From Daucus carota subsp. sativus (lineage: Eukaryota; Streptophyta; Magnoliopsida; Apiales; Apiaceae), in contig NC_030387.2 of the NCBI RefSeq assembly GCF_001625215.2, forward strand, positions 5,856,501-5,920,500: 64,000 nt of DNA, given 5' to 3'. This document shows positions 4,450 to 57,500 of the stretch, piece by piece; position 1 is the stretch's first letter, and the number at the start of each line of letters is the position of its first letter. The position numbers and the translations under genes are program-made. The notes beneath the pieces were generated by a model. The model saw nothing but the letters and a program-made list of their open reading frames with translations. It had not been told where the DNA came from and ran no database searches.

Positions 4450-4940
4450 ATTTCACCCTTTTTACTTGAGACTAAACTCGTGTTTGTTTGTTGGGGGTGG
4501 GAATGGGGTGTACAAGGCGGGGATGGCTGGCTGCTGCCAATACTTGAAGAATTGATATGTATATCTGGACTTACATGTTATAGCAACTATCAGATACCTA
4601 TTTTGATTATCGCAATTATGCTCGTGTTGCTTGTTATTACTGAATGCCTTTTGAATTTGATACAAATGTTAAGCTTTATTTTTGTCATAACAAGCTGTTA
4701 AGTGTTATGTACATCCAAAATGTAGACACCACAACATGTTCATATATGAGCAATGGGCTTCTTCTGGGAGTGTATGCTGTTCGCAGGACGGCGAGTAGAA
4801 TTGAAATGTACATCTGGGGACATGTGTTAGATTTTTTGCCACTTCTGATGATAGGCATTGTGTTCTTTATTTTTGATTTATTTTCCCTATGCCCACACTG
4901 TCATCATGTGGAAAAACAGCAGCTATGGGAGTTACAGAAA
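4450..4940 (+). pseudogene. GTF3C5 5'-end fragment (copy A), upstream of COAD
   Basis: This stretch aligns by eye with the start of the second duplicated copy (8320-8800) and, more weakly, with 51480-51580 before the working GTF3C5 gene. Shared landmarks are gggagtgtatgctgttcgca and the start-codon context agctatgggagttacag (ATG at 4926 here). After the first four codons it diverges, so only the promoter/leader and the very start of exon 1 were copied. It lies just upstream of COAD and may have supplied part of the COAD promoter region. Confidence 0.6.
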
Positions 4941-8296: not shown

Positions 8297-9654
8297 TACT
8301 TCATAGTAAAGTGTTGTTTAAGTGTTGGGGGTTGGGAATGGAATGATGAAGGCAGGGATGGGGTGCCTTTCCTGATACTTATAGAATTTAAATGTATATC
8401 TCAACTAACATGTTTTAACAACTAACAGATGCCTATTTTGATTATAAGAATTATGCTCTGGTTTATTAATAAATGGCTTCTGAAACTGATTTAAATGTTT
8501 AGTCTTTATTTTCTTTATAGCAAACTGTTACTTTTGTGTTTGCAGAATCTCAGTGTACATCTAGATCTACATGTTTTAGCAAATCTAGACATCACTAAAC
8601 GTGTTCATATATGAGTATTATATTCGTGCTAGGAGTGTATGCTGTTCGCAGGACGAGTAGAATTGAAACGTAGACCTGGAAACATGTATTACCAACAGTT
8701 AGATGCCACTTCTGATCATAGTCATTGTGTTGTTTATTTCAAAATTGTTTTTCCCTATGCTGACATTGTGATAATGTGGAAAAATAGCAGCTATGGGAGT
8801 TACAGAGGATGGATCCATCTTAGGAGTTTCACCTAGTACTAAGCTATTTGCAGTTCACCACCCTGGTTACCCTTCAGGCACGTAGTTTACAACTAAACAA
8901 CTTAGAGTTTCGTTATCGTCCTGAAGATCCATATTCACATCCTGCCTTTGGAGAACTTTACCACTGTAATAGTTTTCTGCTCAAATATCAAAAAAGGAGC
9001 AGGAGAAACTTTAAGTGCCGTTGACGTGGAAAATACGTCCAAGTTCTTATTAGCAGATTCCAATAGTGAAGACCCCAAAACTAGCTCACCAGAATCCTCA
9101 GAAACAGAACATCTTGTTCAACTTAGAAGTGAGCCAGTTTGTACCTCTGCAACCGTTAAATAACTGGCATCTGAAGAAGTTAAAGGAAATATCTATGCTG
9201 ATATTGTTGCTCAAGTCTTGGAATCTTTATAATTCTGATGGTTAGAGTGAATTATGATAATTAATTATATTCTTCTCTTTTACCCATAAGGATCTTAGAT
9301 AATCTTTAGATGGTTCAACGAATTATATCTCTATATATGTGTTTCAGGGATGGCAGCTTACCAACATGTTCTTGCTGTTCATGCTGATCTTCCACGGAGG
9401 AAGAAGAGAAATTGGGCAGATGTGGATCCACAGTTTGCTGTGTATTATTTATTATTACAGGTTAGATATTTAATTTTCTATCTTCTTTATTGGGTACTTA
9501 CTTTAATATATATATAGGCTAGTGATCAAATACAAACTAACCTTAAAAAACTAAAAACCAGAACAATTTAGTGATATTCACTTTAAAAATTAGTGATTTC
9601 TGTTGCAAAAATTGGTGAAAGCCTTCAGAAATTGGCGAAAACCTCCAGATCTGT

Positions 9655-9785
9655 CGTTGTTGGCGGAGGTGGGGGCGGAGGTGGGGTTGGCGGTGGAGGT
9701 GGGGTTGAGATGGCGCACGGAGGTAGAGGTGGCGGTGGCTGAGGTCAGGAGAAGTTGGTGGCAGAGGTGGAGGTGGAGGAATTAG
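9655..9785 (+). repeat. GGNGGT-type purine-rich minisatellite inside the pseudogene
   Basis: A G-rich tract of ggaggtgg / ggcggtgg-like units lies in an insert that the intact GTF3C5 copy lacks. It has many runs of three or more G on the plus strand, so a G-quadruplex is possible. ORFs on either strand here are Gly/Pro-rich artefacts. Confidence 0.7.
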
Positions 9786-11854
9786 TGATATTCGCTTTAG
9801 ACATAAAACTCTATATATGTATACTTCTTTGAGAAACGTGGCCTTTTGAATATCGATCAAGAAGGTCTGGTGATATGAGTCCCGCCACTTCTCTCACCTA
9901 AAAATATGTCAGAGAAATTAGTGTAAGATTCTTTAGTTTTGATATTTTTTTTTATGGATCTTGCAGATGGTCTTTATGTCTAATCATAATTTTGTCATAG
10001 TTGGGTGGATTGGAAATTTAGTTGCTGTGTGGTGATAAATTTATATGGAGCATTCACTTTTAATGTGACAGGTATCATATATATATGTTAGCATTTCTAA
10101 AAATAATTTACAGCTGATTAAATTAGGAAGGATAAACCCAAAATTGAAATCAGTGAAAATTGTATAGGTTCTTTCATTTGCATGCCTTTGCAATTTCTTC
10201 TGTCTATTCGTGTATGTCCATTCTATAATAGCTATAAGAAGAGCAACCGAACCTTTGTTTTCATTAACTGGTGCATATGGTCGGTTATTGTATAATAGTG
10301 GTAATATATTTGTTCCCTTTTTCTTCTCATCTTAGTTTACACTATCAAGGGAAGTAACTTTGAACCAGAAGCAAGGGAGAGTCGGACAACACTGCTGGGA
10401 GGTACATCTCAGATTGTTAAGATATACATTTTCCTTGAGTACTTGCTTGCTTGAGCATTGATTGCAGATACTGCTGCCTTTTCTCTTTGGTTGTGTCCTA
10501 GTGCATTTTTCGATTGTTCACGTGTTTCAGTTAAGTATGCCACTTTAGCATGCAAGTACCTTATTTAGCCATTATTTGACCTGAATGTGGTGTTCTATTT
10601 GTCCTCTGGGTCCCAAATGAAATGTGGCATTTAGGTTTCCTTTTAGTGGTTGTGTCATGTCTGCTGGCCTGTGCATGGTTGCACAGTGATACGGAGCATG
10701 GATATAAAGGATTAATTATTTGTTATACTAGCTAGTATAACTAATAATTAGTTACTTATATCATTACCAAAATTTAGAATTAATGGTTTACTAGCTTATA
10801 CCATTGGACATGCTTTTGGGAGATGAATATTAGGCCGTGGTTAAAAATCAGGATTAGTGTTTTTTAGGATCTTACATTAGGATATCTATGCATACAATTG
10901 TAGGGTCATTGCCTGACCACAGCTAAAATATATAGTGATATTTTAACTGCCAAATTGCCTTACTTCTGCTGTAATCTATGTGGTAATTATTACTTTACAG
11001 AGAATTGATAATTACTCAGAATGAAATGGGGTTTAAGGCATTTACCTGGGGGGAGGGGGGCGCATAAATAGTTTTATATCTTCCAATACAGTTTTTCGTG
11101 CCCAAACACCCAAGTGAAGCAAGTTAATATATGTTTACGATTCTTACAGATTAAGCTTACCTTTCTTTGGCTTTTCTTTCTTGGGATCTTCGATCTGGAG
11201 TGCTTTCCTATCAAGCTTGATATCAGTTTATTAAAGATTATCCTTAGTCAAGAGTTTTTATGTAATTTACTGATGTGACCAACAATGAGGTGTGGATAAA
11301 ATCTTTGACTAGATTATAGTCATGTCTTATCAATCATACATGTTCCGAGAAAGGCGAATCGGGAGAAATACTTGGCAAAAATTTCTGAGCAGTGGCAGTG
11401 GCAATGGCAGATGGCTGTATGTACCAAGTTTGAAGAATGTCCTATATGGGAAAATGAATCACTGGCTGACCAATGACATGAAAAAGAACTGATTATTGGA
11501 GTGCTTAGAAAGTTTGAAAGTTTGAACTGATTATTCTCGTAAGCTATGAATAAGTATGAACTTTGATTAGTGACTACTGATTTAATGATTTTTATACCGA
11601 TATCCCCTCTGGTCCTTGTTTCAGGCTTCTTTAACGAGCAGCTTATTATTTTTTCCAGGGGACCATTTTTTAGGTATTCTGTTAGAAGAGGATATAATCC
11701 TCGTAAAGATGTAGAATCACGAGTATGAGTTTTTTGCCTAAATAAAGGGTAACACATCACAATCCTACTTTTTTGTAAATTAGAAATGGGGTCGCTTATA
11801 TCCTGTTAATATTTCCCTGAACTGTTATATTCTGTAAGAATGTTGAAAGATTTT

Positions 11855-12243
11855 GGGTGATGGTCCTGACTTTCACAATTTGTTAGAAGATGACCCCAAA
11901 TCTCAATTTTGTAGAAGATGTCCCCGACCTAACATTTTCCAATTCAAAACACTAGATTGTCTAGCGTCTATCCTCTTTTTCTTTTTAACGCTACACGATC
12001 TAGCGTTTTGTACCCCTAAACGCTATTCTATGTAGCGTCTTACGCCTAAAACGCTAGATTGTGTTGTGTTTTCTAAGGTTTTTCAGCATAAAACGCAACA
12101 CGATCCACCGTTTTCTTCTGAAATCAAAATGCCGGATTATCCGGTGTTACTAAGTGATATTTGGGGTCATTTCTTCCAAATCTGTTATTTTGGGCATCTC
12201 ATCTTAGTTTCCATGATGTTTGGGGCTATTTCTGAAAGATTTT
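11855..12243. mobile_element. 389-bp insertion in the GTF3C5 pseudogene, flanked by a 10-bp direct repeat
   Basis: The sequence gaaagatttt occurs at 11845-11854 and again at 12234-12243. The working gene has it once, and the insert is absent there. The insert has several aacgct / agcgtt motifs facing each other, as in subterminal repeats. I see no clear terminal inverted repeat. The long target duplication suggests a MULE-type nonautonomous element, but this is uncertain. Confidence 0.5.
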
Positions 12244-12435
12244 CGGTGTTATTCTCCTACAGGTGAATTAAGGTAATGTGAATCAATGTAATGGGAAATG
12301 GATATTGTATTGATCTCGTTGGTTCCTCTCTTAGTAACTTTTAGAATATATGATTGGTATAATTAAACCTTTGCTTGGCTATAAGTTATGATATATGTGT
12401 ACAGTTTATAGCTTCACATGATAAGAAGTCCTTTA

Positions 12436-12513
12436 CGGTAAGTGTAAAGTATGTCAACAAAGTTTCCTGTGCTTCGGTAAGTGTAAAGTATGTCAACAAA
12501 GTTTCCTGTGCTT
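12436..12513 (+). repeat. 39-bp tandem duplication
   Basis: Two adjacent identical copies of a 39-bp unit start with cggtaagtgtaaagtatgtc. The working GTF3C5 gene has a single similar copy near 55890, so the doubling happened after the gene was duplicated. Confidence 0.85.
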
Positions 12514-20770: not shown

Positions 20771-22346
20771 AGAGCGGTTGGCTTAGGCACGAATTTTTTC
20801 ATGCTTAGCTTTGGGGTTTTATGTTTTGCTTGTGCTGCCATCATAAAACCTACTGAAGTGGGAAAGCATAATCTCTTGTCAGCTGATTGTAGCAATATCA
20901 GAGGTAGTGGTGTTGTTTCTGACGTTGCTTCTTGTAATTGGTGGTCTCGTTCCCCAGGATATGCTAACAATGTTGTGCTGGATTTCGGCTTAGGTAATGA
21001 ATGGTAGACACTAGTTTAGAGATTTAAACTTTAGCAATCAATCTAATCTGTCTTAATTGAATTCTGGGCGGATGGAAGAATCCTGTAGTAGACCTCCAAA
21101 GGATACATCTTCACTTGCTCTTATAGCTTTGACCTATGAGGATGCTTCTGACTCACTTAAATCACTTAAGCAGAAACTGGATGCTCTTGGGGGAATGCAT
21201 ACGTTACTCCTTTGTCATCCAGGTACATTATTAGTTGTAATTGTTAGTACTTAATTATGTGATTCAAAGTAATTACTTGTGAAATGCATACTCCTTTACA
21301 ATTTGGTGCATACTGCAACCAAGTTATTAAAATTAACCTACTTAATAGCACAAACACTTATGCGGTTATGCCATCTCCCCTACCAGTCCTTTTATAACAT
21401 TTAGCTATGCATATTTTGCAGATTATCCCAAGTTTCTGGCTGAAACAAAACTAATGGCTGATGAACTGGGAGCTGATCGAATTCTGAGTGATATTTCCTT
21501 CAGGACAGCCACTGAAGAAGACAAGGAGAGAATCAAATCAGCTTTACATAGTGAGGGGTCCATTCATGGGAATGTTGACTGGGCTGCAAAGCTGGGGGCC
21601 AATCTTTCTTACAGTGCCCACCTAAGTCCAACATTAAAGAAGAAGACTATGGATGATCCTGAGCCGACCAAAAGAAGCAAAGATAAACGTATTATACAAT
21701 ACAAGAGGACTTTCAAAAATAAGCTCAAGGTAAAGCCTATCCAGGAGGAGACTCCTCTGCCTGAACAAAACCATGACCAGGGCACTGAGAAGCTAGATGT
21801 TAATATTGAAGATAAGTTGGAAGGTGGGCTGAGCACTAGACTCAGGCCAAGAACTAAAAAGCAGGTTCCAAAGGTCCCGAGACTTGTCAGGGAGAAACCT
21901 GAAGCAAAAAGTGCATTGATGAAGCAAACATCCAGTAGCAGAACAAAAACAGCTTCTGGGATCCAGGCTTCGGCCGGAAAAAGGTCCAAAAAATCACAGG
22001 TAGAGCATTCTTGTGACATTGAGGGCTGCCTGATGAAATTTTGGCTCCAAAAAAGAGCTGGGGCTCCCTAAGAAAAATTATCTGCTCAGTGAAGGGGTGT
22101 GAAAAGAAGTTGGCCTCGCACAAGTGTCTGATGCACCGTCAGAAAGTGCATCATGAGGACCATCCCCTAAAATGCACTTGGGAAAGCTGCACCCGGATGT
22201 TTAAATGGGCTTGGGCTCGGAAGGAACATATCAGAGTTCATACAGGTGTCCGTCCATATACCTGTGCTGAGACTGGCTGTGGAAAAACATTTCGTTTTGT
22301 GTCAGATTTCAGTCGCCACAAGAGGAAGACTAGACACTCAGGGTAG
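20771..22346 (+). pseudogene. REF6/ELF6-like histone demethylase, 3' part only (copy A), frameshifted
   Basis: REF6/ELF6 proteins remove H3K27 methylation with an N-terminal JmjC domain and find their sites with four C-terminal C2H2 fingers. Only the part after JmjC is here. Pieces are a C5HC2-like segment (SFGVLCFACAAIIKPTE, SADCS, RSPGYANN), then 21061-21221 (LKQKLDALGGMHTLLLCHP, ending at a GT donor), and 21421 onward (DYPKFLAETKLMADELG, DWAAKLGANLSYSAHLS). A Lys-rich linker follows. Finger 1 (about 22013-22075) is broken by extra bases. Fingers 2-4 are intact in another frame (22041-22346), with CTRMFKWAW, EHIRVHTG and FRFVSDFSRHKRKT. The JmjN/JmjC part is absent and an hAT-like element sits at the break. 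Confidence 0.85.
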
Positions 22347-23250
22347 CTCGAAGAATGAGCACCGAGAGGCAAGAAGAAACATAGAAATGAAGAAAGTTAA
22401 CATTATCTAAGAACCTCGTTGCTCATGTGCAAGAGGTAGGTGTAGTTTCTAGTTTAACATGTCCTCGGAATGTCTTTCATATTACAGTTGATTTAGCCTT
22501 TTTAATTTCAGAAACAGAGTTAGCAACCACATTGGAATGTGCACAATGTTGTCTTACATTAGATGGTCGAAATTTATGTATAATTCTGGAGTTTAGATCT
22601 CATATCTTGATATATCATAAATATGTATTTTACTTTATTTTGTTATCATGTCTATATACCATGGACTGTTTCTGTACAGGTTAAGCAGGTTTTAAGACAT
22701 TCACCCTGACATTCCGCAAGGAACTGCAGGAGGATCAGATATAGGCACTACTACATTCACTCATTTTTTTCTGCTATGCATTTCCCTGTTGTGTGATCAA
22801 TTTATTATCAGTGTCTTGCACCATAGTCACATATTTACGTGTAGATTTTTTATTTTTTATTGTAAAAAGCATGGTTGCTGAAATCGATAATCGGAACTAA
22901 TTGGTTGACCTGCCAATTCAAAATTAGTGAGAACTTATTGGAGATTTTTTCGACAAATTGGGAATTTTAAGTCAATCGAATGTAATCGATAAAATAGTTC
23001 TTCAAAATTAATCGGGGATCTTCAAAAAAATCGGGGATCTTGAAAATAGTGAGTAAAAGGAGAAAAGATAAGAACAAATTCTTTTTAAGAGAAAGTACAT
23101 TTATTATCCATGCATCTTTTATTTTAATTTTTATTGTCAGGATTTTCCTCTTCTACTTATATTCACACAAATACAATAAATACCCACAATAAAAGCAAAA
23201 GACAAGTATTTTGTTCTAGAGAGAGCAGAGCAGAAGTGTGTGAGCTTTTT
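22347..23250. other. REF6-like 3' flank and intergenic DNA
   Basis: 22690-22830 repeats at 26810-26960 (shared gacattccgcaaggaactgc and ctgctatgca). The duplicated block therefore includes the REF6 3' flank in both copies. From 22860 to 23250 I see nothing recognisable. Confidence 0.55.
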
Positions 23251-23279: not shown

Positions 23280-24470
23280 GTGAAATATTTGGTGAGAATG
23301 GAGAGAATTAAAGAAAATCAAGAGCTTTCAAATGAGTTTAATCACCCTGTAAAAAATGAAATTAAGCCAGAAAGCCTAGAGCGGGGTTTAAGTGGTGAAG
23401 ATGAGGGTTCTGAGTTGGTGCTTGCTATCGAAACAGAGAGGGGTTTCGATAAAGGTGGGAACTTTGAGAAAGGAAATTGAGAATGATCAAAGTGGTTTTG
23501 GGGTATTTAGAGATGGTGATGAGTTTGGGAGTAAGTTGTGTGAGAATGAGAATCGATTCGGTGATCGTGATTGGAAAGGTTTTATTAATGATGAAGGGAA
23601 ATTCGAGGGGAGAAAAAGCGAAAAGTTAGGCGGTGTGGAAGGAAATGAAAGTAAGCAAATGAAGAAATGGGGGAAATGAAGGTAATTGTAGGCAAATGAA
23701 GGGGTAAATATAAGGATGGGAGTAAGTGGAGTGAGATTGAGAATGAAGGTGATCGTGAATTGAAGGGTATTAGAAATGAGGCAGAAATTGAAGAGAGAAA
23801 CTTTTAAAAGTGTACTGTTGAGGAAGGAAATGAAGGTGCTTTTAAGGAAATAAAGGAAGGGGATAAAGATGAGGGGAGTAATTGGAGTGAGATTGGGAAT
23901 GAAGGCGATGATCGTGATTTGAGGGGTATTGAAGATGAAATGGCAATCGAAGAGAGAAACCCTAAAAATCGTAGTCTTGTGGAAGAAAATGAAGTGCTTT
24001 GAAGGAAATAAAGGAATGGGATAGAGATCAGGAGGGGATTAAGTGGAGTGACATTGGGAATGAAGGTGGTGATCGTGATTTGGAGGGTATTAAAGATGAG
24101 ATGACAAACCCTAAAAATCTAAGTGTTGTGGAAGGAAATGAAGGTGCTTTGAAGGGAACAAAGGAAGGGGATGAAGATAAAGAGGGGAGTAAGTGGAGTG
24201 AGATTATGAATGAAGATGATGATCATGATTTGGAGGGTATTAAAGATGAGACGGAAATCAAAGAGAGAAACACTGAAAAGCGTAGTGATGTGGAAGAAGA
24301 TGAAGGTGGGAGGGAGATTAAGAATGAAGGCAGTGATCGTGATTTGAAGGGTGTTAAAGATGAGGCGAAAATCAAATAGAGAAATACGGAAAAACGTAGT
24401 ATGGTGGAAGAAAACGAAGGAGATTTTATGAAATAAAGGAGGGTAATGATGAGGAAGGGAGAAATTGGGG
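23280..24470 (+). other. Coding-like tandem repeats of about 150-160 bp, acidic (Glu/Asp/Lys-rich), function unknown
   Basis: Frames starting near 23262, 23392 and 23999 give hydrophilic, charged proteins. The repeated core reads like KWSEI, NEG, DRDLEGIKDE and GNEGALK. The DNA anchor tggagtga(g/c) recurs at about 23726, 23883, 24043 and 24193, so the unit is about 150-160 bp. A fifth, partial unit lies near 24305. A possible start is ATG 23299 (MERIKENQEL). Stops near 23480, 23677 and 23805 break the frame, so this is a decayed gene or a repeat that happens to be open. I recognise no family. The minus-strand ORFs across it are shadows. Confidence 0.5.
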
Positions 24471-24679
24471 TGAAATTGAGGATGTTGAAGAAATTTATAT
24501 TTGTGAAGTAAAGAATAGGAGGGCAAATAGGAGTACTTTGGTATTTGGTACTTCTGATGTTCGACTTTGGTATTTGGTAATTTTGATGTTCCACTGAAAT
24601 GGAGTTTTGCTTATTATAAAGGGTATTGATTGGCCTGAGTCTAGTGCACGGTCCACCTTCAAACCTCTCTTCCATATTG

Positions 24680-25494
24680 GCCCGTTTAAACGTCTTTGTG
24701 CAGCCTTCCCAAGGGCATTGTAGGGGACAGTCCTCACGATGCACCTTCTGATTGTGGATCCGATATTTGTGCGAGGCAAACTTCTTTCCGCACCCCTTTA
24801 TTGAGCAGATATTTTTGTCATGGAGCCCCAGCTCTTTTTTGGAGCCAAAGTTCATCATGCAGCCCTCCACAAGAATACTTTGCCTCTGCTTTTTTGGACC
24901 TTCTTCCCGCTGATGCCTGAATTCCAAAAGCCGATTATGCTTTGATACTCGATGTCTTCGGTTCATCTTTTTTTACAACTTTATGTGTAACATGTTTCGG
25001 GTCCTTCTTTGGAGGCTTTGACTTTCTTGGCCTGAGTCTAGTGCTCGGTCCACCTTCAAACCTCTCTTCCATATTAGCATCAAACTTTTCAGCGCCCTGG
25101 TCATGGTTCTGTTCAGGCGGAGGAGTCTGCTTGACCTTCAGCTTATTTTTGTAAGTCCTCTTGTACTGTATAATACAATTATCTTTAGGTGTCTTCACAA
25201 ATTCTTCAGCTACAAGAGACTTGCCCCTAAAGGTAGTCTCACTATTAGCCATACTCTTCCTCTTCAATGTGGCATTGCTACGCTTAGAGGACAACTCAGT
25301 AATATGACTTTTTGATGATTTGCTAGGCATTACATAAGTTTCTGGTTGCTTAGACGAATTTTGAGATACTTTATGTTGTTCATGGTCTGTGGCCTCAGCT
25401 GATTCTTTAACTTTACGAGACTTGTCTCTTTTGGTTGGCTCAGGATAATCCATGCGCTTCTTCTTTAATGTTGGACTTAGGTTGGCACTTTAAG
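24680..25494 (-). pseudogene. REF6/ELF6-like zinc-finger fragment (copy C), left arm of a palindrome
   Basis: Read on the minus strand from 25453 it gives MDYPEPTKRDKS, a Lys/Ser/Glu-rich linker, EERFEGGPSTRLRPRKSK, then the finger region (NFGSKKELGLHDKNICS, KFASHKYRIHNQKVHRED, LQCPWEGCTKTF). A stop follows SSIKA near 24935. The copy ends after CTKTFKRA. At 24620-24680 it is joined to a second copy of the NMEERFEGG segment, so the end is rearranged. It pairs with copy B on the plus strand. Confidence 0.8.
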
Positions 25495-26380
25495 TTGTTC
25501 ATGGTCTCAGCTGATTAAAGAGAACCTTAACCTTAGGCCATGAATAATCTTTCTTAAAGTGCCAACCTAAGTCCAACATTAATGAGGAAGAGTATGAATT
25601 ATCTTGAGCCAACCAAAAGAGGCAAGTCTCCTAGAGTTAATGAATCAGCTGAGGCAACAGACCATGAACAGCATAAAGTATCTCAAAATTTGTCTAAGCA
25701 ACAAGAAACTTATGTAATGCCCGACAAATCATCAGAAAGTCACATTATTGAGTTGGCCTCTGAGCTTAGCAATGCCACATTGAAGAGGAAGAGTATAGCT
25801 GATAGTGAGACTACCTATAGGGGCAAGTCTCCTGTAGTTGAAGAATCAGTGAAGACACCCAAAGATAAATGTATTATACAGTACAAGAGGACTTACAAAA
25901 AATAAGCTGAAGGTCAAGCAGACTCCTCCGCCTGAACAGAACCATGACCAGGGCGCTGAAAAGTTTGATGCTAATATGGAAGAGAGGTTTGAAGGTGGAC
26001 CGAGCACTAGACTCAGGCCAAGAAAGTTAAAGCCTCCAAAGAAGGACCCGAAACATGTTACACATAAAGTTGTAGAAAAAGATGAACTGAAGACATCGAG
26101 TATCAGAGCAAAATCGGCTTTTGGAATTCAGGCATCAGCTGGCAGAAGGTCCAGAAAAGCAGAGGCAAAGTATTCTTGTGGAGGGCTGCATGATGAACTT
26201 TGGCTCCAAAAAAGAGCTGGGGCTTCATGACAAAAATATCTGCTCGGTAAAGGGGTGCGAAAAAAAGTTTGCCTCGCACAAATATCTGATACACAATCAG
26301 AAGGTGCATCGTGAGGACCGTCCCCGTCCCCGTCCCCTACAATGCCCTTGGGAAGGCTGCACAAAGACGTTTAAATGGGC
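24680..26380. repeat. Large palindrome of REF6-like sequence (arms about 815 and 828 bp, spacer 58 bp)
   Basis: The plus-strand stretch 25553-26380 is the reverse complement of 24680-25494 with scattered mismatches and small indels. By eye identity is well above 90 percent. The arms meet at cttaaagtgccaacc around a 58-base spacer. A transcript through it would fold into one long hairpin matching the linker and fingers 1-3 of a REF6/ELF6 gene. Such inverted duplications can produce small RNAs in plants. Whether this one is transcribed is unknown. Confidence 0.85.
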
Positions 26381-26570
26381 TTGGGCTTGGGCTCGGACAG
26401 AACATATCAGAGTTCATACAGGTAACCGTCCATATACCTGTGCTGAGACTAGCTGTGGCCAAACGTTTCGTTTTGTGTCAAATTTGGGTCGCTACAAGAG
26501 GAAGGCTAGACCCTCAAGGAAGCTCGAAGAATCAGCAAACAAATGCAAGACGCAAGTTAACATTATATAA
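25553..26570 (+). pseudogene. REF6/ELF6-like zinc-finger fragment (copy B), right arm and finger tail
   Basis: ATG 25582 opens MRKSMNYLEPTKRGKS and a linker parallel to copies A and C. One extra A near 25905 (ACAAAAAATAAG) ends that frame. The frame resumes at 25976 (EERFEGGPSTRLRPRK) and shifts again at the first finger. From 26121 it reads MEFRHQLAEGPEK, then fingers KKFASHKYLIHNQKVHRED, CPWEGCTKTFKWAWA, EHIRVHTG and FRFVSNLGRYKRKARP. A doubled ccccgt unit at 26322-26336 and a doubled gggctt unit near 26377 add residues to fingers. The last finger has lost both zinc-binding His residues (RYKRKARP for RHKRKTGH). Confidence 0.8.
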
Positions 26571-27128
26571 GGACCTCATTGTTCATGTGCAAAGGTAATT
26601 TCAGGAATAAAGGAATGTGCACAATGTTGTCTTACATTTTAGATCAACCAAGTGATATTATAAAAGATGTATAATTCTGGACTTGAGCTCTCATTTCTTC
26701 GATATATTAAAATTTGTATTTTCGTTTTTGGTATCATGTCTATGTACCATGGACCTTTCGAAAACGGATAAGCAGGGTTTAAGTACCTCATCGCTTTACA
26801 GTTTCGACGTTTATCCTGACATTCCGCAAGGAACTGCAGGAGGATCAGATATGAGGAATCTGATTGCTACTGGGGACTATTAGGCACTACATTCACTCAT
26901 ATTTTTCTGCTATGCATCTTCCTGTTGTGTGATCACTTTATTATCAGTGCCTTGTAGTTGTAGTACATAAACATATTTTTTTTTCAAGAAAATAAATATA
27001 TGAGCTAGTGCAGGACTCCATTTTACATATAAAAGGAGAAAAGATAAGAACCAATTTTTGTTTTCTAATAAAAGAAAGTACATATATTACTCAAGAATTT
27101 TGGTGGTAGAGAGTTTAAAAATGTTTTG
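26571..27128. other. Duplicated REF6-like 3' flank, then intergenic DNA
   Basis: Up to about 26960 this matches the flank of copy A (22440-22830), including gacattccgcaaggaactgc. A short frame here (VYPDIPQGTAGGSDM) ends at a TAG near 26881; I do not take it as a gene. Confidence 0.55.
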
Positions 27129-37133: not shown

Positions 37134-38829
37134 CTATGCATGAAATTTTGCCGAAATATTACAATTTATGAGTGTTGTATGCTGACCTTTTTCAAAGAGA
37201 GAGGAGGATAACGAAAGCAACAGTAAATCTATCTGTCAAGGAAACACTCTAGCATACTTTAAAACTGCGAATAGAATTAATAATATTCAGCTACCAACAA
37301 GAAACTGATCCAGTTTATTGTCCATCTTTTAAGCGCAAAGTGATTAATAAAAGCTATCTTTTAAAAATTTATCTCTTGGCTGCAACACTCCTAGTCCACT
37401 CACAATAGACACTCATATAAAAACCCTGCTAAACAGAAAGTGAACCCACAACATACAGAAAACAAATACAACCTAAATATTTAGGCAAACATAGACTTGA
37501 GCACTTAGGACATAAAAGTAAGCAATAAAACAAGGAATATAAATAGCAGTATAGCACATGGAATAATACACATAGTGTTCTGTTTCAGTTGTATGATGAA
37601 GTGATAATGCATGGTAAAGTTGAGCAAACACCTAATGCTGGTGACATGCTTGTTTGGACAAATCAAGACACAAAATTAAAGTGAAGGAAATATACTTCTG
37701 TCATCTCCCTGTAACTGAGCCACGCAACCTCGATATCAACCTCTAACCAAAATTCAAACAAACTCAAGCCAAGCAACTGTCGAGAACTCAAATTCTCGAC
37801 TACTTAAACTCACAAACCACGATCTACAACATATTCATCAACAAACCTCAACAAAACACAAATCAAACACAAATCAAACAAAAAATTAACATCACAGATC
37901 TATTCAATCAAAAGGATACAGATTCATCAACGAAGTCTTCCCAATCCTAACAACACAAAAACAAAATCAAAATCAAACTAATTAAAACTCGAATTTATCA
38001 CAAACCAAAAAATAATCAAATAATTCGAAACATATTGTTGAATAACACAATAGGGCATGTATTATGAAACAGGGCAATTACAAGGAGAACATGTAGAAAA
38101 CCAACAACAAATCAATCATTACCATCCCATACAATCCCACACATAAAATCTAAGATTATAGTACAGTGCGTCATTTCTATTTGATGAGAGACAATATGAA
38201 AATTAGGGATCTGGGGAGAGGGAGGAGAGATGAAGAGTGTGTTGTGTATAGAACAAATCATAGTAGCTGGTACCCAATTGGAGGTGCTCTGCTGATTTTC
38301 TCTAATTGGAGGTGCTCTGCTGATTTGAGAGAAGAATAGATCTGCTAATTGGAGATGACGAAGAAGAAGAGAGATATAGAAAGGAAGGGGGGAAACGAAA
38401 ATTTCGGTTAAAGCAAAAGGGGGGAAATGAAATGGCTAATCTCCAAAGTTGAAATACAAAAATTCTATTACAAATAATAAAAATATTATATTTTAATATT
38501 TTGTATAATTGAATTTTGCGAAAAATTGAATTTTGTAAGTATTTATTTATAGTTGATTATCAAAATATCATAAAAAAATAGAATTTTAAATATATAATAA
38601 TTTAGTGATATAAAAAATAAATATTTTATAATTATCTTATACGATCTTTTAATAAATATACAGTACGACTATTGTGTCTAGTAAACAAAATAATTGATCC
38701 TAGTAATTGTTAAAGTAGAACTATAAGAAAATTAAAAAAATAATCTTCTAATTTTTTTAACAATAAAAAAGTATTTTTTGTCATTTTGTGTCCTAGTAAT
38801 TGTTGTATAATAAATTCTTATATCTTTGA

Positions 38830-40600
38830 TCAATTCTTATTTTTATACTTTTTATCCAAAAAAATATATTTATATTATGCATATATGCAAATATGTATTG
38901 TTCATTTGTAATGCCAAGACAATTTTGTAGTTCGACGTAAGTATTAATATGTGTTTTATGTTTACAAGAATCTTTGTTATGTATAAGATTACTCTATATT
39001 AATTTATAAATATTTTTTTCGATGATTTAACCATACGGATGTCAAGAACTAACAATATTAGTCATGTATAAAAAAAATCAAAAAAATTTATGTTCATTTT
39101 GTATGTTTTTTTAACAATACTAATCAAACATAAATTTTGTCTTATTATAAAAAGGTATTTTTGTCCTGTAATGTCCAACAGACAACGGTTTTTATATGCA
39201 CCGATGTTGTATCATTGTAAATGAGACAACTGTTACCCAAGTTATACCGTTGTAAGAGAAACCATTGTCTGAATTAGGCTCAAACAACCCTTCAGGGAAA
39301 TTCCGTTGTATATAAGTAATGTACACAACGGTTTATGAGAAGAAAACCGTTGTATTATAAATTTTCATTTTTATTAGTTAAAAATTCGCATTTCCTTGAT
39401 CAATTCTTGTTTTTGTAGTCTTTGTGATAAAAAATATATTTATATTATGCATATATGCAAATATGTATTGTTCATTTGTAATACCAAGACAATTTTGTAC
39501 TTCGGACGTAAGTATTAGTATGTGTTTTATGTTTATAATTTAGTAAGCACTCGATGAAATCTTTGTTATGTATAAGATTAGCTCTATATTGATTTATAAA
39601 GATTTGTTTTCGATGATCTAACCGTACAGATGTCGAGAACTAATTATATTAGTCATGTATAAAAAAAATCAAAAAATTTAATGATCATTTTGTATGTTTT
39701 TTTAACAATACTAATCAAACATAAATTTTGTCTTATTATAAAAAGTTATCTTTTGTCCTCTAGTGTCTAACAGACAACGGTTCTTATACACACTTATGTT
39801 GTATCATTGAAAGTGACACAACTGTTACGGAAGTTATACCGTTGTAAGAGAAATCATTGTTTAAATTAGGCTCAAACAACCCTTCAGGGAAAATCCGTTG
39901 TATAAAAGTAATTTAGACAACGATTTATGCGAAGGAAACCGTTGTATAATAAATTTTCATTTTTATTAGTTAAAAATTCGCATTTCCTTGATCAATTTTC
40001 TTTTGTAGTCTTTGTAATAAAAAATATATTTATATTATGCATATATGAAAATATGTATTGTTCATTTGTAATACCAAGACAATTTTGTACTTCGGACGTA
40101 AGTATTAGTATGTGTTTTATGTTTACAATTTAGAAAGTTCTCGATGGAGTCTTTGTTATGTATAAGATTAGCTCTATATTAATTTATAAATATTTTTTTC
40201 GATGATTTAACCATACGGATGTCGAGAACTAACATTATTAGTCATGTATAATAAAAATCAAAAAATTTTATGTTCATTTTGTATGTTTTTTTAACAATAC
40301 TAATCAAACATATATTTTGTCTTATTATAAAAAGGTATATTTTGTCCTGTAGTGTCTAACAGACAACGATTTTTATACGCACCTATGTTGTATCATTTTA
40401 AATGACACAACTGTTACGGAAGTTATACCGTTGTAAGAGAAACCATTGTCTAAATTAGGCTCAAACAACCTTTCAGGGAAAATCCGTTGTATAAAAGTAA
40501 TGTAGACAACGGTTTATGGGAAGGAAACTGTTGTATAATAAATTTTCATTTTTAAAAGTTAAAAATTCGCATTTCATTGATCAGTTCTTGATCTAATGCA
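38830..40600. repeat. Three tandem copies of a 570-590-bp block inside the CACTA
   Basis: The anchor atatatttatattatgcata occurs near 38864, 39434 and 40022. Each block ends with the same run of acaacggtt-type motifs (tataccgttgtaagagaaa and ggctcaaacaac). The copies are about 90 percent alike by eye. The multiplied part is the subterminal motif cluster, so the element gained extra potential transposase-binding sites. Confidence 0.88.
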
Positions 40601-42302: not shown

Positions 42303-42526
42303 GAGTCTCCATGGTCTCATGTGGCATTAGTTATTCAGGGTCTCAGTTTTTCTTTCTCAGCGGCGTAGTATGTGCTCTCTTTTGCTGTAGTTGTTTTAGG
42401 TAGTTGGTTGGATTTCTGGTGGAATTCTCTTTTGTATCAGTACTTTGTCCCCCTTTTGGGTTCTCTGTAAGAAATTCTGAGACTTTATGATATATATATC
42501 CTGCTTTTCAAAAAAAAAAAAAAAAC
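42303..42526 (+). other. 3' UTR and poly(A) tail of the RNase H retro-element
   Basis: After the stop, a T/G-rich leader to the tail ends in tatatatatcctgcttttc and then a run of 15-16 A (about 42510-42525). This is the usual 3' end of plant LINEs and retrocopies. Confidence 0.6.
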
Positions 42527-42651
42527 TTTGTTATATTTGAACATAGAAGGAAGAGAATTCTAATCTCTCCCGTGTTGGAACCCATCCTTGTTTTCGGTAT
42601 CAATTTTTCAAACGCTTCTAGCAAGTCATATTAAAATCTTATGTTAATATA

Positions 42652-44270
42652 TTTTATGTTATGGTGATATTTAATACATATCAAAATCTTAATTTAATAT
42701 ATCGAATATAGTGAAGTATGATAAATATAATAATTCCTCCGTTTTAAATAACATTTTTTTATCTTGGTCAAATTATAGAGATTTTGACTAAAATTCACAA
42801 ATTTTATTATAAAAAAATCTGAAAAATACATCCAAAATTAATTATACACATTCATTATCTTATTATTAATTATAAAAAATATATAAATTTTGGTCAGAAT
42901 TTTAAATGAAGAAATTATATCAGATATCACTTTTTTTGTGACAATTTAGGCTTATCTGTTTTACAAATGTGTATATGTTCTAATATTTTTCACGATGACA
43001 CAGAGTCGAACTCGGGGGTCGTAACTCATTACATATCACTTAATAGTATCCTAGTAAAATGATATGCTAAAATATAATATATCATTTTATTTTTAATAAG
43101 ATCTAATTAAATATTGAAAATAATATCTAGTACGATCTTGTATATTTAATAAATGAAAAAATAACAAATCTCAATAAATACTAGCTAAAATAATGCCTAC
43201 ATATTGTAGTTACAACCTTCATCCGAACATCATTATCTCGTATATTTTCACCTAATTCATCTGATCTATAGACTTATAGATTTCCTTTGTCCATTGTCTT
43301 CATTTTCTTCCATGGATAGAAACCCAACTTGGGATAAAGATGTACCCAAAGGATCTTTACGTTGCTGTGATATCATTGTAGATGAAGATGGATAAGAAAA
43401 GAAGGAGCCCAATGATGATGAGGACGTGGAAGAGGAGTACGAAGTAACGATGATAATGGACGTGCGATTTTTTTCGTTACTTCGTACTCTTCTTCCACGA
43501 CCTCATCGTCATTGGGCTCCTTTTTTAATTCATCTTCATCTACAATGATATCGCAACAACATAAAGATCCTTCGAGTACATCTTTATCTCAAGTTGCGTT
43601 TCTATCCATGGAAGAAAATGAAGACAATGGACAGAAGGAAATCTATAAGACTATAAATCAAATCAATTAGGTGAAAATATACGAGATAATGATAATCGGG
43701 TGAAGGCTGCGGCAATATATAGGCATTTTTTAGCTAGTATTTATTGAAGATTTGATATTTTGCATTTATTAAATATACAAGATCGTACCAGATATTATTT
43801 TCAATATTCAATTAGATATTATTAGAAATAAAATGATATATTATATTTTAGTAAAATATCATTTTACCATACTAATAAGTGATATGTGATGAGTTAGGAG
43901 CCCCTAGGTTCGACTCTGTGTCATCCCGAGAAATATTGGAACATGTACTCATTTGTAAAATAGATAAGCCCAAATTGTCATAAAAAAAAAGGAATATGTG
44001 ATATAAATTCTTCATTTAAAACTTTGACCAAAATTTATATATTTTTTATAATTAATAATAAGATAATGAATGTGTATAATTAATTTTAGATGTATTTTTC
44101 ATATTTCTTAATAATAAAATTTGTCAATTTTAGTCAAAATCTCTATAAATTGACTAAGATAAAAAAAATGTTATTTAAAATGAAGGAATTATTATATTTA
44201 TCGTACTTCACTATATTCGATATATTAAATTAAGATTTTGATATGTATTAAATATCACCATAACATAAGA
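42652..44270. repeat. 1.6-kb foldback element (arms about 790 bp, 23-bp loop)
   Basis: The plus strand from 43474 to about 44270 is the reverse complement of about 42652-43450, with a modest number of mismatches. The inner ends meet at gaagtaacga (43441-43450) and tcgttacttc (43474-43483). The outer ends are at tatgttatggtgatatttaa. Inside the arms lies a Stowaway-like block (attcctccgttttaaataac). Near the centre there is a piece that looks coding (MDRNPTWDKDVPKGSLRCC, from 43315). The whole is one long hairpin and a likely source of siRNA. Confidence 0.85.
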
Positions 44271-44363
44271 TATTTGTATGATATGTTGAATTAAGATATA
44301 TTGAATTAAGATTTTGATATATATTGAAATGTCAACATTATATATGATAATGATATGCATTAA

Positions 44364-44774
44364 GGGGAGTGTTTTCAACTGTAATTTTATGGATTTTATC
44401 TATTTCATGGATTTTAATGGATTGTATCTCATTTTGATTTTATGCGGATTTTATATAAAATGCTGCAGAGTTGGTGCAAAGTCTTTAGAATTCTAAGCAT
44501 AATGTTTCAGAATCTCATGGATTTTGGTGTGGTGCTTCAAAATCTCACGGATTTTGATGGGATTTCAAATATCTTAAAATACACCGAACAATCTCACAAA
44601 ATCCATCATTTTATGAAATTCAAAAAAATCCATCAATATTTTGAATACTATCTGATTTTAATGGATTTTAAATAATTTCAATTAAATACCATAATATTTT
44701 TAAGTATAATTTAAAATCTTGATTGAATACCACAAGATTTTGTAGCATAACTTAAAATCTTAATTGAACACCCC
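44364..44774. mobile_element. Probable MITE, about 411 bp, PIF/Harbinger-like ends
   Basis: The left end is ggggagtgttttcaactg and the right end, reversed, is ggggtgttcaattaag, an imperfect inverted repeat. The inside is filled with atggatttta / taaaatccat units in both orientations. No clear 3-bp target duplication was found, so the class is uncertain. Confidence 0.5.
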
Positions 44775-51066: not shown

Positions 51067-51567
51067 GTATTGAAATCTTACAAAAACTGTATTTAATAAA
51101 ATTAAGTTGTCTGTCTGGTGTGCAAGTTCATCTTGGTTTACTCAGTGTTGAGTGTTGACAAACTGATTTGAAACTGGGCCACATTTATTTTAACCTGCAT
51201 CCATTGCTCATATTCATAATTAGAGCATCTAGTTATCTACAATGCTAAAACTATAAATGGTTCACTATAATGATTGGCTATCATGAATATGTAAAATTTT
51301 ATCATGAATATGAATATAGTATATCATATATGAATTTGATATATGCTCCAACGGGATGATGTATAATTAATATTATATAAAAGTATACATAAGACAATGT
51401 GAGTTTTCTCTGCTGTTATTGAGTCACCAATTACTAGAATTTCACTGGCCGTCATCACAGCAGCTGGCAACGGTTTTATGCCACTGCTCATCACAGGCAT
51501 TGTGTTGCTTATCTTAGATTTGTTTTTCCATTTGCTCACATTGGCATCATTTGGATGAACAGAAGCT

Positions 51568-54500
51568 ATGGGAGTTATAGAGGATGGATCTATCTCAGGA
51601 TTTTTACCTAGTACTAAGCTATTTGCAGTTCACTACCCTGGTTACCCTTCATCAGTTACACGAGCTGTGGAAACGCTTGGTGGGACTGATGGTATTGTCA
51701 AGGTATGAAACCTCTATGCTACATATTCTTTGGTATATAAGTAGCTCTGAGATTCCTGTTCATACTTCTAGTTTCAACCACAAGTTAATTCTACCCGAGG
51801 TTGGTTTTGCCAAGTTGCTATAATGAAATCAAAGCAAACATTGACTTTGTTATTATGTTTCCTTCTATGAAAGCTCAGACAATTTATGATTCATCTACTA
51901 AATGGTTCTTCCTCACGGATGTGTTTATGCATGCATAACTATCTAATTGTGGTTGGTCTTGTGAGAGAATAGTAGTGGACTAGTGGTTGTTTCCGTGAGA
52001 TGCATAAGTATCTAATTGTTGATTTCACTCGGAGGGGATTCCTTTTCCACTATATTAATATTTATCTGTCTGTAACACACACAATTGATACTTTATTTAT
52101 CTTTAAGAATTAAGAGTTAAAGGTTTTATTGGCAATATATAAGAGGAACACAAGTTAGATAGACTAGTCCTTTAAGAGAAATGAAATAGGTAAGATGTTA
52201 AACCCTGTGACATTGCTTATATAATTGTCATTGAATAAAATGTCTTTTTGGTTTCAAGAAGTTCATCAAACAAACCTTTTCACCATCACATGCCAGTTTT
52301 ACCGTGGATTTACTGCAGGCACGTAGTTCACAACCAAACAAGTTAGAGCTTCGTTATCGTCCTGAAGATCCATATTCACATCCTGCCTTTGGAGAAATTT
52401 ACCACTGTAATAGTTTTCTGCTCAAAATATCAAAAGGAGCTGGGGAAACTTTAAGTCAAGACCCCGAAATTAGCTTCCCAGAATCCTCAGAAACAGAACA
52501 TATTGTTCAACTTAGAACTGAGCCAGTTTCTACTTCTGCAACCGTTAAATCACTGGCATCCGAAGAAGTTCAAGGAAATATTTGTGCTGAAATTGTTGCT
52601 CAAGTCTCGGAATCTTATCATTTTAATGGTTAGAGCAAATGATGATAATTTTTTTTTTTTTTGCTCTTTTCCTCATAAGGATCTTGGTTAATCTTAAATG
52701 GTTCCTTTAAATTTATATCCCCTATATATGTGTTTCAGGAATGGCAGACTACCAACATGTTCTTGCTGTTCATGCTGATGTTTCACGGAGGAAGAAGAGA
52801 AATTGGGCAGATGTGGACCCACAATTTGGTCCGTGTTATTAAAGATTTGATATTTGATTTCTTTTTCTTCTTTATTGGGTACATACTTTAATATAAATAC
52901 ACTTCTTAGAGAAGCGTGGTCTTTTGGATGTCGATCAAGAAGATCTGATGATATTAGTCCCGCCACTTTTCTCGCCTAAAGATATGCCGGAGAAATTAGT
53001 GTAAGATACTTTAGTTTTTGTACTTTTTTTATGAATCTTGCAGATGGTCTTATGTCTTATCACATTTTGTCATAGTCGGGTGGATTGGAAATTTAGTTGC
53101 TATGTGCACACCTTTGCAATTTCTTGTCTATCTGTGTATGGTCCATTCTATGATAGCTGTATGGAGAGTAACCCAAGGCTTTGTTCTCATTAACTGGTGC
53201 ATATGATCGGTTAATGCATAATACTAGTCTCACTTTTTTTGTTCCCTGTTTTTTTTTATCTTAGTTTAAAACCATCAATGGAAGTGACTTTGAAGCAGAA
53301 GCAAGAGACAGTTGTACAACACCGCTGGGAGGTACTTTTCAGATTGTTAAGATATACATTTTCCTTGAGCACTTGCTTGCTTGAGCATTAATTTGCAGAT
53401 ATTGGTTTCCTATTAGTGGTTGTATGCTGGCCTGTGCGTTGCACATTGATAGGGAGCATGGATATAAATAATTAATTATTAGTTATACTATAGATTAATA
53501 ACTATGTCTTTGTATTAGGGTCATGTTCAAGAGAGAACCATTAGAGAGAGAACTCATAGAACCATTACCTTATTTCTAGTGTTAGTTAGGGTTCAGCAGC
53601 AGAACTTCACATGCAAGAAATGTCAATATCTATGTATTATATTTTAAAATTATTTTTGAACACACACAACGATGAAAAAACATGAAAAAAAAAATGTATT
53701 TAGATTTAGATCTAAAAAATCTATTTAAAATTTAGGGTTCTGCAGCAGAACCTTAGTGGTTCTATGGTTCTATTTTAAGAACTGGTTCTCTCTTGAGCGC
53801 GACCCCTTTGTATTATTAACTAACATTTATAATTAATGGCATACTAGCTTATACTAGCGTATACCACGGGACATGCTCTTAGTAGATGAATATTAGGTCG
53901 TAATTACAAATTGGTATTAGTGATTTTTTTAGGATTTTACATTAGGATATCTCTATTCATACAATTGTAATCGTTATTATCAAAGTTGAATTATATGAAC
54001 CAAAATTGAGGATTGATTGTGTTTGCTGTTGATTGTCTGCGGATCCCATTGTTTTTGCCCTTTTTCCTACCTTGTTCTACAGTAAGTTGTAGCAGAGGCA
54101 TAATCTTGGGATTTGTGTCACCAAACCTGCAAAAACCATCGAGAAATCACAATTGCCCCGCCCTGCCATACATCAGCTGACAAAATCATGTCCTTTCTTT
54201 TCCTGGAAAGTTCTTTAACAAGCCCTACTTAGATAGTTTGCGGATTGTCCTACATCACATATAACATCTGGTTGAGCTATGTATTTCTGTTTTAGATAAC
54301 ACATAGTGACCTCAAATTTTAGCTGTCTTATTTATCCAACTGCGGGCTCTTTTGTTAGTTGTGGTAAAATTTATAATTGTGGCCCAAAATTTTTTGTTTT
54401 TAGTCAAACTACAAGATATGTCAGTGTAATTTTTCTTCAATTATTTTATGTGTTTTAGACATTTACTTCTCTGGTTCACTTTAAGCACCAAGGTTATCTT

Positions 54501-57500
54501 TCTTTACCATCCATTATTAAACTCATTATATTTGTGAGAGTTTAATGTCTGATACATTACATTTTTGTTCTATGCAGATGGAAATAGAGCCAGGTCTTGC
54601 CTTGGACTTCAACAGTGATATCCTGATCTTATCTGATACATACCTCTGCTGTGACTTCACTGTTTATGTTTGTTCTTTCTGCTCTCTCTGTCACTTTACC
54701 TGACCTCAGGTAAAATATATAGTAATATTATCACTGCCACATTGCCTGACCTCTGCTGAAATCTGTGTAGTAATTATAACTTTACTGAGGATAGATTATA
54801 GCTTGGTAAGAAATGGGGTTTATGGCATTTACTCGGGGAAGGGCGGCATAATAGTTTTATTTCTTCCAAAGTTCCAATACAGTTTTTCATGCCCAAACAA
54901 CCAAGTGGAGCAAGTTAAAATATGTTTACGTTCCTTACAGATTAAGCTTACATTTCTCTCGATTTTCTTTTTGGGATTTTAATATGAGTGCTTTTCTAGC
55001 AAGCTTGACATTAATTTTACATTAAAAATTACCCTTAGCCATGAGTTTTTATGTAATTCGCTGATGTGACTAACAATGAGGCGTGGACAAAATCTTGACT
55101 AGATTGTAGTCAGGTCCTAGCTTGGCATAAATCTAGCTTCCTTACGTGTTAGACTTGGTTCTTCCTTTTTTTCCTATACTTGACGATCATACATGTTCCG
55201 AGAAAGGCAATTTGGGAAAAATACTTGGCAAAAAGTTCAGAGCAGTGGCTGTGGCAGACTGCTGTATGTAATTTGTTTGATGAACGTCCTATATGGAAAA
55301 AAGAATCACTTGCTGAGCAGTTACATGATAAAGGACTGATTATTGGAGACAACATGCTTAGAAGGTGATCTGGATCATCCTATATGAATAAGTATGATCA
55401 TTGATTACTGAATAGTAACACTGATATTCTATCTGGTCCTTGTTTCCTGTTTCAGGCTTCTTTACCGAGCAGCTTATTATTTTTCCAATGGACCATTTCT
55501 TAGGTTTTACATCAGAAGAGGATATGATCCTCGTAAAGATGTAGAATCACGAGTGTGAGTGTTATGCTTAAATAAAGAGTAACATATCACAACCCCACTT
55601 TATTCGGTCATTGTTTATCTATGTTTGTAAATTTGAAATGAGGCCTCTTTATCTTGTTAATATATTCCTGAACTGTTGTATTCTGCAAGAATGTTGAAAG
55701 ATTCTTAAGATTTTTGGTGTTATCATCCTGTAGGTGAATTAATGTAATGGGGAAATCGATATTGTGTTGAAATCATTAGTTCCTCTCGTAATTTTTTTAT
55801 ATGATTGATATACTTAAGGCTTTACTTGGCTATAGGTTTTGATATATATGTGTACAATTTATGGCCTCACGTGATAAGTCCTTTATGTGAAGCGTCAAGT
55901 ATGTCAAACAAAGTTTTCTGTACATTTCTTAGTTATAGTCTGTATTTTATAGAGCTGAACATTACATTATGACGGTGAATTGGTATGAACTATATGGTAG
56001 AAAACACATTACAACTAATTCCTTAAGAATGTATGTGACAGTATGTTCAAATTCAAAATGAGTCTGGACTACTGTTTCCAAACTTGTTCTTACGTATATA
56101 TGTTGTGTTTTGCAGATATCAAAGGATAGATTTTCGAGTGCCACCATCGTTAAGAAGCTATTGTGATGCCAACGCAACGTAAGGAACACAGATAGATTAT
56201 ACCCTTTGACATTAGAAAGAGTAATAAGATAGTTCTACTCTGCTAATTAATCGTCTTGTTAACTTTTATATTTAGTATGTGACTTTGATCATTAAACATA
56301 AACATCAATCCATGTTATTAACCTCTCCTTGATGATTTTTAATCTCTGAAGCTGAATGAGTATAGGCTCAAAAATGGAAAATCTCATCTTTAACTTCGCC
56401 ATGGGTTTAGATGGGTCGCTTATTTTTTACATTGAGGAACTAGTGAAATGAACCAAAGCAGATCAACAACTTACAACTTACGAGTTACAACTGAGTCGAT
56501 GTAATAAAAATGGGTTACACGTTTGAAATTTTTGGAGAACTCATTTTGTCGTGAGGTATAGCATTTTTTGTTTAATCTAGTATTGATCAGTTTCACCACA
56601 AGGTTGAAAGTTCTTAGAGAGTGAAAACTTCAAGTGATGGTCTTTCTTTTTATTAAATGACACAAATACTGCAGAAACATGGAAGGGGATAGATATACTA
56701 TAAAAGTTAATACATATGCTAATATAAATCATAATGAGGCAGTGTGTATGATTTACTCTTGCAGAGCACAAATTGCTCCTAGACTGTCCACATTCAGTAA
56801 TAATTAATGATTTGGAAGTTTAATGTTCATGCTTACGGTTTATGGATAGTTGTGATCTCTTTGTTATTATAACCCACTTTCTCATATTTTGTGCAGGCTG
56901 AAGCATAGATGGAGTGATATACGTTCCTTTCAGGTTTTTCCATACAAATGTCAAACTTCATTGCAACTTTATGAACTTTCTGATGATTACATACAGAAAG
57001 AAATCAGAAATGCTTCAGCCCAACCAACTTGCAGTGTGAGTAATACTTATTAGTTCTTTACAAAAAATTCTAACCCAAGTCCTGACTGCATCTGCTCCTA
57101 ACTTATTTGTCTGAAACTTTTGTTAAGTTATTTGATGTATAATGTATTAACTTTTCTTAGTTATTTGATGTATAATGTATTCCTGTATCCAAATATTAGC
57201 CGGTAATAATTTTTTTACCAAGTTTGGTCTTATTCACAAACTTTATATTATTTATATTTTACATGGTATCAGTTCTTTTGATGTCTTATTTTTGTGATTC
57301 CAATACTACTCTAGCAAATAAATATTTGTAAGATGATGGACGTTTATTACAAGTATTAGACAGTCAAGCTTGACTAACGCGTGTGAGTGTGTTAGCTAGG
57401 GGTGCGTGTATAAGAGTAAACTCATAGACAAATTACAGTAAGAAGCAGGTTGAATTGTGACTCCAAACTTCTAAAAGAGCTGTTAATTGTTTACTTTTGT

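Follow-up and report, generated by a model that had tools for sequence, protein, structure and literature searches.

A head-to-head palindrome of REF6-derived pseudogene sequence in carrot as a candidate locus of self-directed silencing

In plants, siRNAs are known to arise from inverted gene duplications, as the original prediction for the carrot locus described here had assumed and as VIM4-VIM2, PAI4-PAI1, a rice pseudogene pair, IR71/IR2039, and Mu killer exemplify. In Arabidopsis Cvi, VIM4 and VIM2 lie head to head over about 6.4 kb around a 50-bp non-palindromic centre, and siRNAs as well as trans cleavage of VIM1 mRNA have been reported (PMC13213937). A rice inverted pseudogene pair carries small RNAs on its stem, and none were detected from the parent gene (PMC2708354). 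The Arabidopsis inverted repeats IR71 and IR2039 are rich in 21-nt siRNAs and methylated (PMC5910406). For Mu killer of maize, short antisense transcripts have been favoured as an alternative to a long hairpin (PMC3440606).

The locus analyzed here lies in a window of 64,000 nt (the whole stretch of Daucus carota subsp. sativus DNA that was analyzed; NC_030387.2, positions 5,856,501 to 5,920,500). It resembles VIM4-VIM2 in being a long head-to-head palindrome with a centre of about 50 bp in a chromatin-regulator gene family, across which read-through would give a hairpin, but the VIM pair shares 99.86% identity and has siRNAs and trans-cleavage on record, whereas the carrot arms are decayed and 94% identical. 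Like the rice pair, it comprises a pair of pseudogene copies that derive from a single parent, face each other, and are predicted to form a hairpin (PMC2708354); the rice pair has a 185-nt duplex, a 1,283-nt loop, and small-RNA reads, whereas the carrot stem is about four times longer, has a tiny loop, and is a prediction from the DNA sequence. As in PAI4-PAI1, one gene has been duplicated in inverted orientation beside itself (as described in PMC13213937). PAI4-PAI1 silences endogenous homologues via non-CG methylation, whereas close intact homologues were not found here among the database proteins compared. The locus shares with IR71 and IR2039 the character of an endogenous inverted repeat able to feed several Dicer-like enzymes, although the processing and methylation documented there would have to be supposed here (PMC5910406). 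It also resembles Mu killer, a partial inverted gene duplication for which a read-through hairpin from a flanking gene has been proposed, but Mu killer silences an active transposon (PMC3440606). Among the matches listed from the open literature, outside of which most subscription papers lie, none was recognisably about a REF6-derived hairpin.

A comparison of the window with itself by blastn showed that 24680-26380 matches its own reverse complement with 91.1% identity over 1722 columns (E=0). Together with a global alignment of the arms, it confirmed almost to the base the predicted geometry of arms of about 815 and 828 bp around a 58-bp spacer (Table 1). The two arms share 766 identities and differ by 49 substitutions, 33 of which are transitions, and 13 gap columns, which amounts to 94.0% identity when the 815 ungapped columns are counted; the longest uninterrupted matches between them are 130, 70, 46, and 44 bp. 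An assembly artefact was judged unlikely, given the 49 arm differences and a public contig, encoding P0016, that spans the left-arm flank and the 52-bp scar (24858-24226, 210/211 residues); P0016 stops short of the palindrome centre, which is carried by this assembly alone. The left-end scar itself is real.

Table 1. Features of the palindrome and its surroundings (window coordinates)
Feature	Position	Strand	Description
Copy 1	20771..22818	+	5'-truncated, frameshifted REF6-like fragment; apparent intron sequence kept; downstream sequence included
Minisatellite	23512..24484	.	Units roughly 115-160 bp; adjoins left arm
Left-arm scar	24630..24681 (52 bp)	-	Displaced duplicate of 25027-25078, 96%, at outer end of left arm
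Left arm	24680..25494 (815 bp)	-	Inverted copy of linker and zinc-finger region; new stop codon, shared 5-bp frameshift deletion
Spacer	25495..25552 (58 bp)	.	Partly palindromic itself; 27 nt at centre of predicted fold
Whole right copy	25546..26954	+	Homology to copy 1 (21601-22818), interrupted, extends past both arm ends
Right arm	25553..26380 (828 bp)	+	Sense copy; +1 A frameshift, shared 5-bp deletion, 12-bp insertion

The expectation that read-through RNA would form a single long hairpin stands as well, since 786 of the 815 bases of the left arm find a partner in the right arm in the predicted fold. In this fold, the stem is extended into the spacer by 13 bp beyond a 5-nt bulge, and the 27 nt that remain form only a few weak pairs. 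The predicted RNA energy of 24600-26600 was -1539 kcal/mol versus -537 to -557 kcal/mol for six mononucleotide shuffles, and that of 20800-22800, which covers the neighbouring direct copy, was -548.5 kcal/mol. The locus has the long near-perfect inverted repeat and short spacer looked for in a hairpin siRNA locus (815/828 bp, 94.0%, 58 bp), and perfectly paired stretches of 21-24 nt are present in the stem. Along the arm alignment, 253 of 808 windows of 21 nt are without any difference and 651 have two or fewer, and 224 of 805 windows of 24 nt are without difference. For a plus-strand transcript, 22 of the 49 arm differences are G:U-compatible versus 11 for a minus-strand transcript; this may be a slight tilt towards kept pairing, and selection for pairing was not accepted.

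The zinc fingers of the right copy gave structures of Arabidopsis REF6 as the best solved match (PDB 6a57, E 1.4e-42; 6jnl, E 8.2e-41). The Pfam hits to C2H2 fingers in the right copy and copy 1 were weak, every one below Pfam's own cut-offs, and the two left-arm ORFs scanned gave no such hit. JmjN and JmjC domains were absent from the 20 ORFs scanned (19 of the 75 stop-to-stop ORFs of at least 90 aa, plus one of 80 aa). By homology, the arms are REF6-like linker and zinc-finger sequence. An intact ORF across the linker and four fingers is absent, as all three copies are frameshifted, and the left arm additionally has a new stop and ends inside the fingers. The zinc ligands, with positions inferred from the C2H2 pattern, are not intact in the right copy: in both the right copy and P0001, one ligand His has moved by one residue (QHQRVH to HNQKVH), and the two expected zinc-binding His of the last finger are replaced by Y and P. 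A coding role of the arms was ruled out by the shared and private frameshifts.

The damage also bears on the order of events. Five base pairs present in copy 1 are missing from both arms, and because the finger start of the undamaged P0002 (C-D-V-E-G-C) agrees with the state in copy 1, this difference is a deletion in the arms. The private breaks are the +1 A and +12 bp of the right arm and a TAA in the left arm. As both arms share the frameshifting deletion, the source was probably a pseudogene already when it was inverted, with the frame lost before inversion. A clear third-position excess of arm-arm substitutions was seen neither in the left ORF (36 of the 49; codon positions 1/2/3 = 8/18/10) nor in the finger part (9 of the 49; 3/2/4). 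Divergence is uneven, with 30 substitutions in the inner 300 bp versus 19 in the other 515 (Fisher p=0.0004, with the cut chosen after seeing the profile), a pattern that might reflect a more complicated origin or gene conversion affecting the outer part. When polarised against copy 1, eight of the 49 changes are left-derived, six right-derived, and two ambiguous, while six fall at unreliably aligned columns and 27 have no copy 1 base. The right-arm linker contains an internal direct repeat (25576-25648 and 25777-25849, 201 bp apart, 77%) that is also present in the left arm (by alignment), P0017, and P0019; copy 1 has a single unit.

A third copy in direct orientation had been placed at 20771-22346 and proposed as a further target. 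The copy exists, aligning to the right copy at 77% over 783 columns (25860-26597 with 21678-22438, self-blastn), with further matching pieces of the right copy at 25546-25625 and 26612-26954; it is itself frameshifted, and the 5' part of the gene is missing from it. Its ORFs at 21349-22068 and 22023-22343 are in different frames. Upstream of these are coding pieces separated by apparent introns, and, by reading, we take these pieces to be the REF6 region after the catalytic domains; the 5' limit (~20771) and the introns were read from the sequence and are approximate. Immediately upstream of copy 1 lies CGGGG-rich simple sequence, and downstream its homology to the right copy stops at 22818. 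The match of the left arm to copy 1 is confined within the arm. Since only the right copy matches copy 1 beyond the arm ends, the left arm is taken as the secondary, inverted copy.

Database searches returned protein matches for the right-copy finger ORF (n = 16), the left-arm linker ORF (n = 6), and the copy 1 ORF (n = 6), amounting to 25 proteins overall. Twelve of these (P0001 and P0015-P0025) were chosen as near the locus and mapped back by tblastn, with P0002-P0014 left unmapped; a precomputed Pfam domain is absent from the former and present in the latter. At least six of the 12 mapped proteins are visibly decayed. P0016 carries the scar, P0018 ends at the +A frameshift of the right arm, P0020 has the frameshift of copy 1, P0021 contains an inverted junction, and, by reading, P0001 and P0015 have changed Cys/His residues, P0015 also with a change of frame. 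The remaining six (P0017, P0019, and P0022-P0025), each a short ORF from a contig of 803-1437 bp, could represent either pseudogenes or exons of functional genes.

For the left-arm flank, the right copy, and copy 1, closely matching sequences occur in public contigs. P0020 matches copy 1 at 21454-22068 in 198/205 residues and has the same end point, P0018 fits the inner part of the right arm (98/103 residues), and P0001 fits the right-copy fingers (113 identities over 125 columns). Both P0018 and P0001 may derive from a sister copy or represent the right arm of a different accession. In P0021, REF6-linker residues in sense orientation give way to a 27-residue stretch that matches 22355-22275 on the minus strand (19/27 identical), which suggests another inverted REF6-fragment junction elsewhere. 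When two non-plant contig collections (viral and genome) were scanned with the finger ORF, 4 and 32 pattern matches were obtained, with no confirmed relative among them.

The REF6 fragments sit between direct-orientation copies of a gene region at 8693-12470 and 51468-55921, with a related piece at 4463-4938; the copy at 51468-55921 codes for the N-terminal domain of Tau95 (TFIIIC; PF17682, E 1.5e-12). At 38812-40590 there is a tandem array whose units measure about 570-590 bp and are 89-90% alike, and LINE-type reverse transcriptase remains (RVT_1, zf-RVT) lie at 61472-63280. A second palindrome at 42649-44273 is about 89% identical over 1646 columns, its innermost arms are 9 nt apart, and the region 42500-44500 has a predicted energy of -1082 kcal/mol. 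Within the palindrome are a CTCCGT stretch that resembles the ends of Stowaway MITEs and, by reading, short gene-like stretches.

We interpret the locus as a head-to-head palindrome of REF6-derived pseudogene sequence whose likely effect is self-directed silencing of a decayed family and not control of a working REF6, a reading to which we assign a probability of roughly 0.55. A 5'-truncated REF6-like fragment would first have been duplicated in direct orientation, giving copy 1 and the right copy, and the frame would then have been lost in the lineage of the right copy. An inverted duplicate of part of the right copy would next have arisen alongside it, with fold-back or template switching as the probable mechanism, and the displaced 52-bp scar at the left end and the partly palindromic spacer would be its traces. 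Any transcript across 24680-26380 is predicted to fold into a stem of about 815 bp, which Dicer-like enzymes would cut into siRNAs of 21-24 nt. These siRNAs would chiefly match the arms and sister fragments, and the likely outcome would therefore be silencing of these sequences, not of a working REF6. Several points count against this reading: the locus may be inert; P0017, P0019, and P0022-P0025 may be exons of working genes; and a single inversion event gives no account of the excess divergence in the inner 300 bp. In hpRNA transgenes, self-methylation is also reported to be prevented when the two arms differ by substitutions (PMC9263138), and the 6% arm differences may thus lower self-methylation compared with perfect arms, which counts against the self-methylation step.

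An inert palindrome, untranscribed or already silenced and left behind by repeat turnover in a transposon-rich region, is rather unlikely, yet it survives best among the alternatives. The same window holds the second long palindrome, LINE-type reverse transcriptase ORFs, and tandem arrays, and an Rfam search of the window gave no match at gathering score. In one report on hpRNA transgenes, these methylate and silence themselves, and mismatches between the arms prevent such self-silencing (PMC9263138). Inertness is harder to reconcile with the capacity of long near-perfect inverted repeats with short spacers to yield small RNAs in plants, and with the close counterparts of the left-arm flank and right copy in public contigs.

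The original prediction had named an H3K27 demethylase of the REF6/ELF6 type as the likely target, whose mRNA hairpin siRNAs would cut in trans as a form of natural RNAi. The architecture is that of the Arabidopsis Cvi VIM4-VIM2 inverted repeat (PMC13213937) and the finger sequence is still recognisably REF6, but the VIM4 and VIM2 copies are 99.86% identical versus 94% for the arms here. The claim was found to be unsupported, as the arms derive from a decayed copy and the right-copy fingers are 95% identical to the decayed P0001 versus 55-70% to the undamaged relatives aligned. The fingers of Arabidopsis REF6, P0002, P0004, and P0005 are mutually 85-97% identical, and those of the right copy are 66-70% identical to these, with 67% to Arabidopsis REF6. 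The fingers of P0003 are 76% identical to Arabidopsis REF6 and 69% to the right copy; for P0006-P0014, the corresponding values are 63-76% and 55-61%. If the host REF6 is conserved as usual, the arms would be far from it. In the linker, P0017, the nearest possibly intact relative, is 63-65% identical to the arms.

Copy 1 is the nearest possible target seen, and it is broken. Perfect 21-mer matches to it number 9 of 808 for the right arm and 17 of 795 for the left arm, rising to 116 of 808 and 128 of 795 within two mismatches. Targeting of copy 1 to some extent is possible, and copy 1 yields no intact protein. Given their apparent decay, the arms seem unlikely to restrain a working gene; trans-silencing would become plausible if their similarity to the parent gene greatly exceeded that to copy 1. 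RNAi against REF6 is thus possible but unlikely, and self-directed siRNAs or inertness are likelier. Its most far-reaching form, in which a natural RNAi locus from a burst of REF6 fragments lowers a REF6/ELF6-type H3K27 demethylase in trans and hairpin dose or methylation tunes Polycomb memory, flowering, or heat response, is highly improbable.

A young MIRNA gene arising by inverted duplication of its target, the classic model of MIRNA origin reportedly put forward by Allen et al. in 2004, is scarcely credible here, as arms of more than 800 bp with perfect runs of up to 130 bp suit siRNA-type dicing over the release of one precise duplex, and the Rfam search gave no family match at gathering score.

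If the hairpin is expressed, the palindrome of REF6-derived pseudogene sequence would provide a natural test of the level of decay at which a gene-derived inverted repeat no longer acts on its parent but only on itself. If the parent gene is hit, the locus would be a structural variant linked to H3K27 demethylation, parallel to the VIM case for DNA methylation. If it is inert, it would show by example how long palindromes arise from duplicated pieces of genes.
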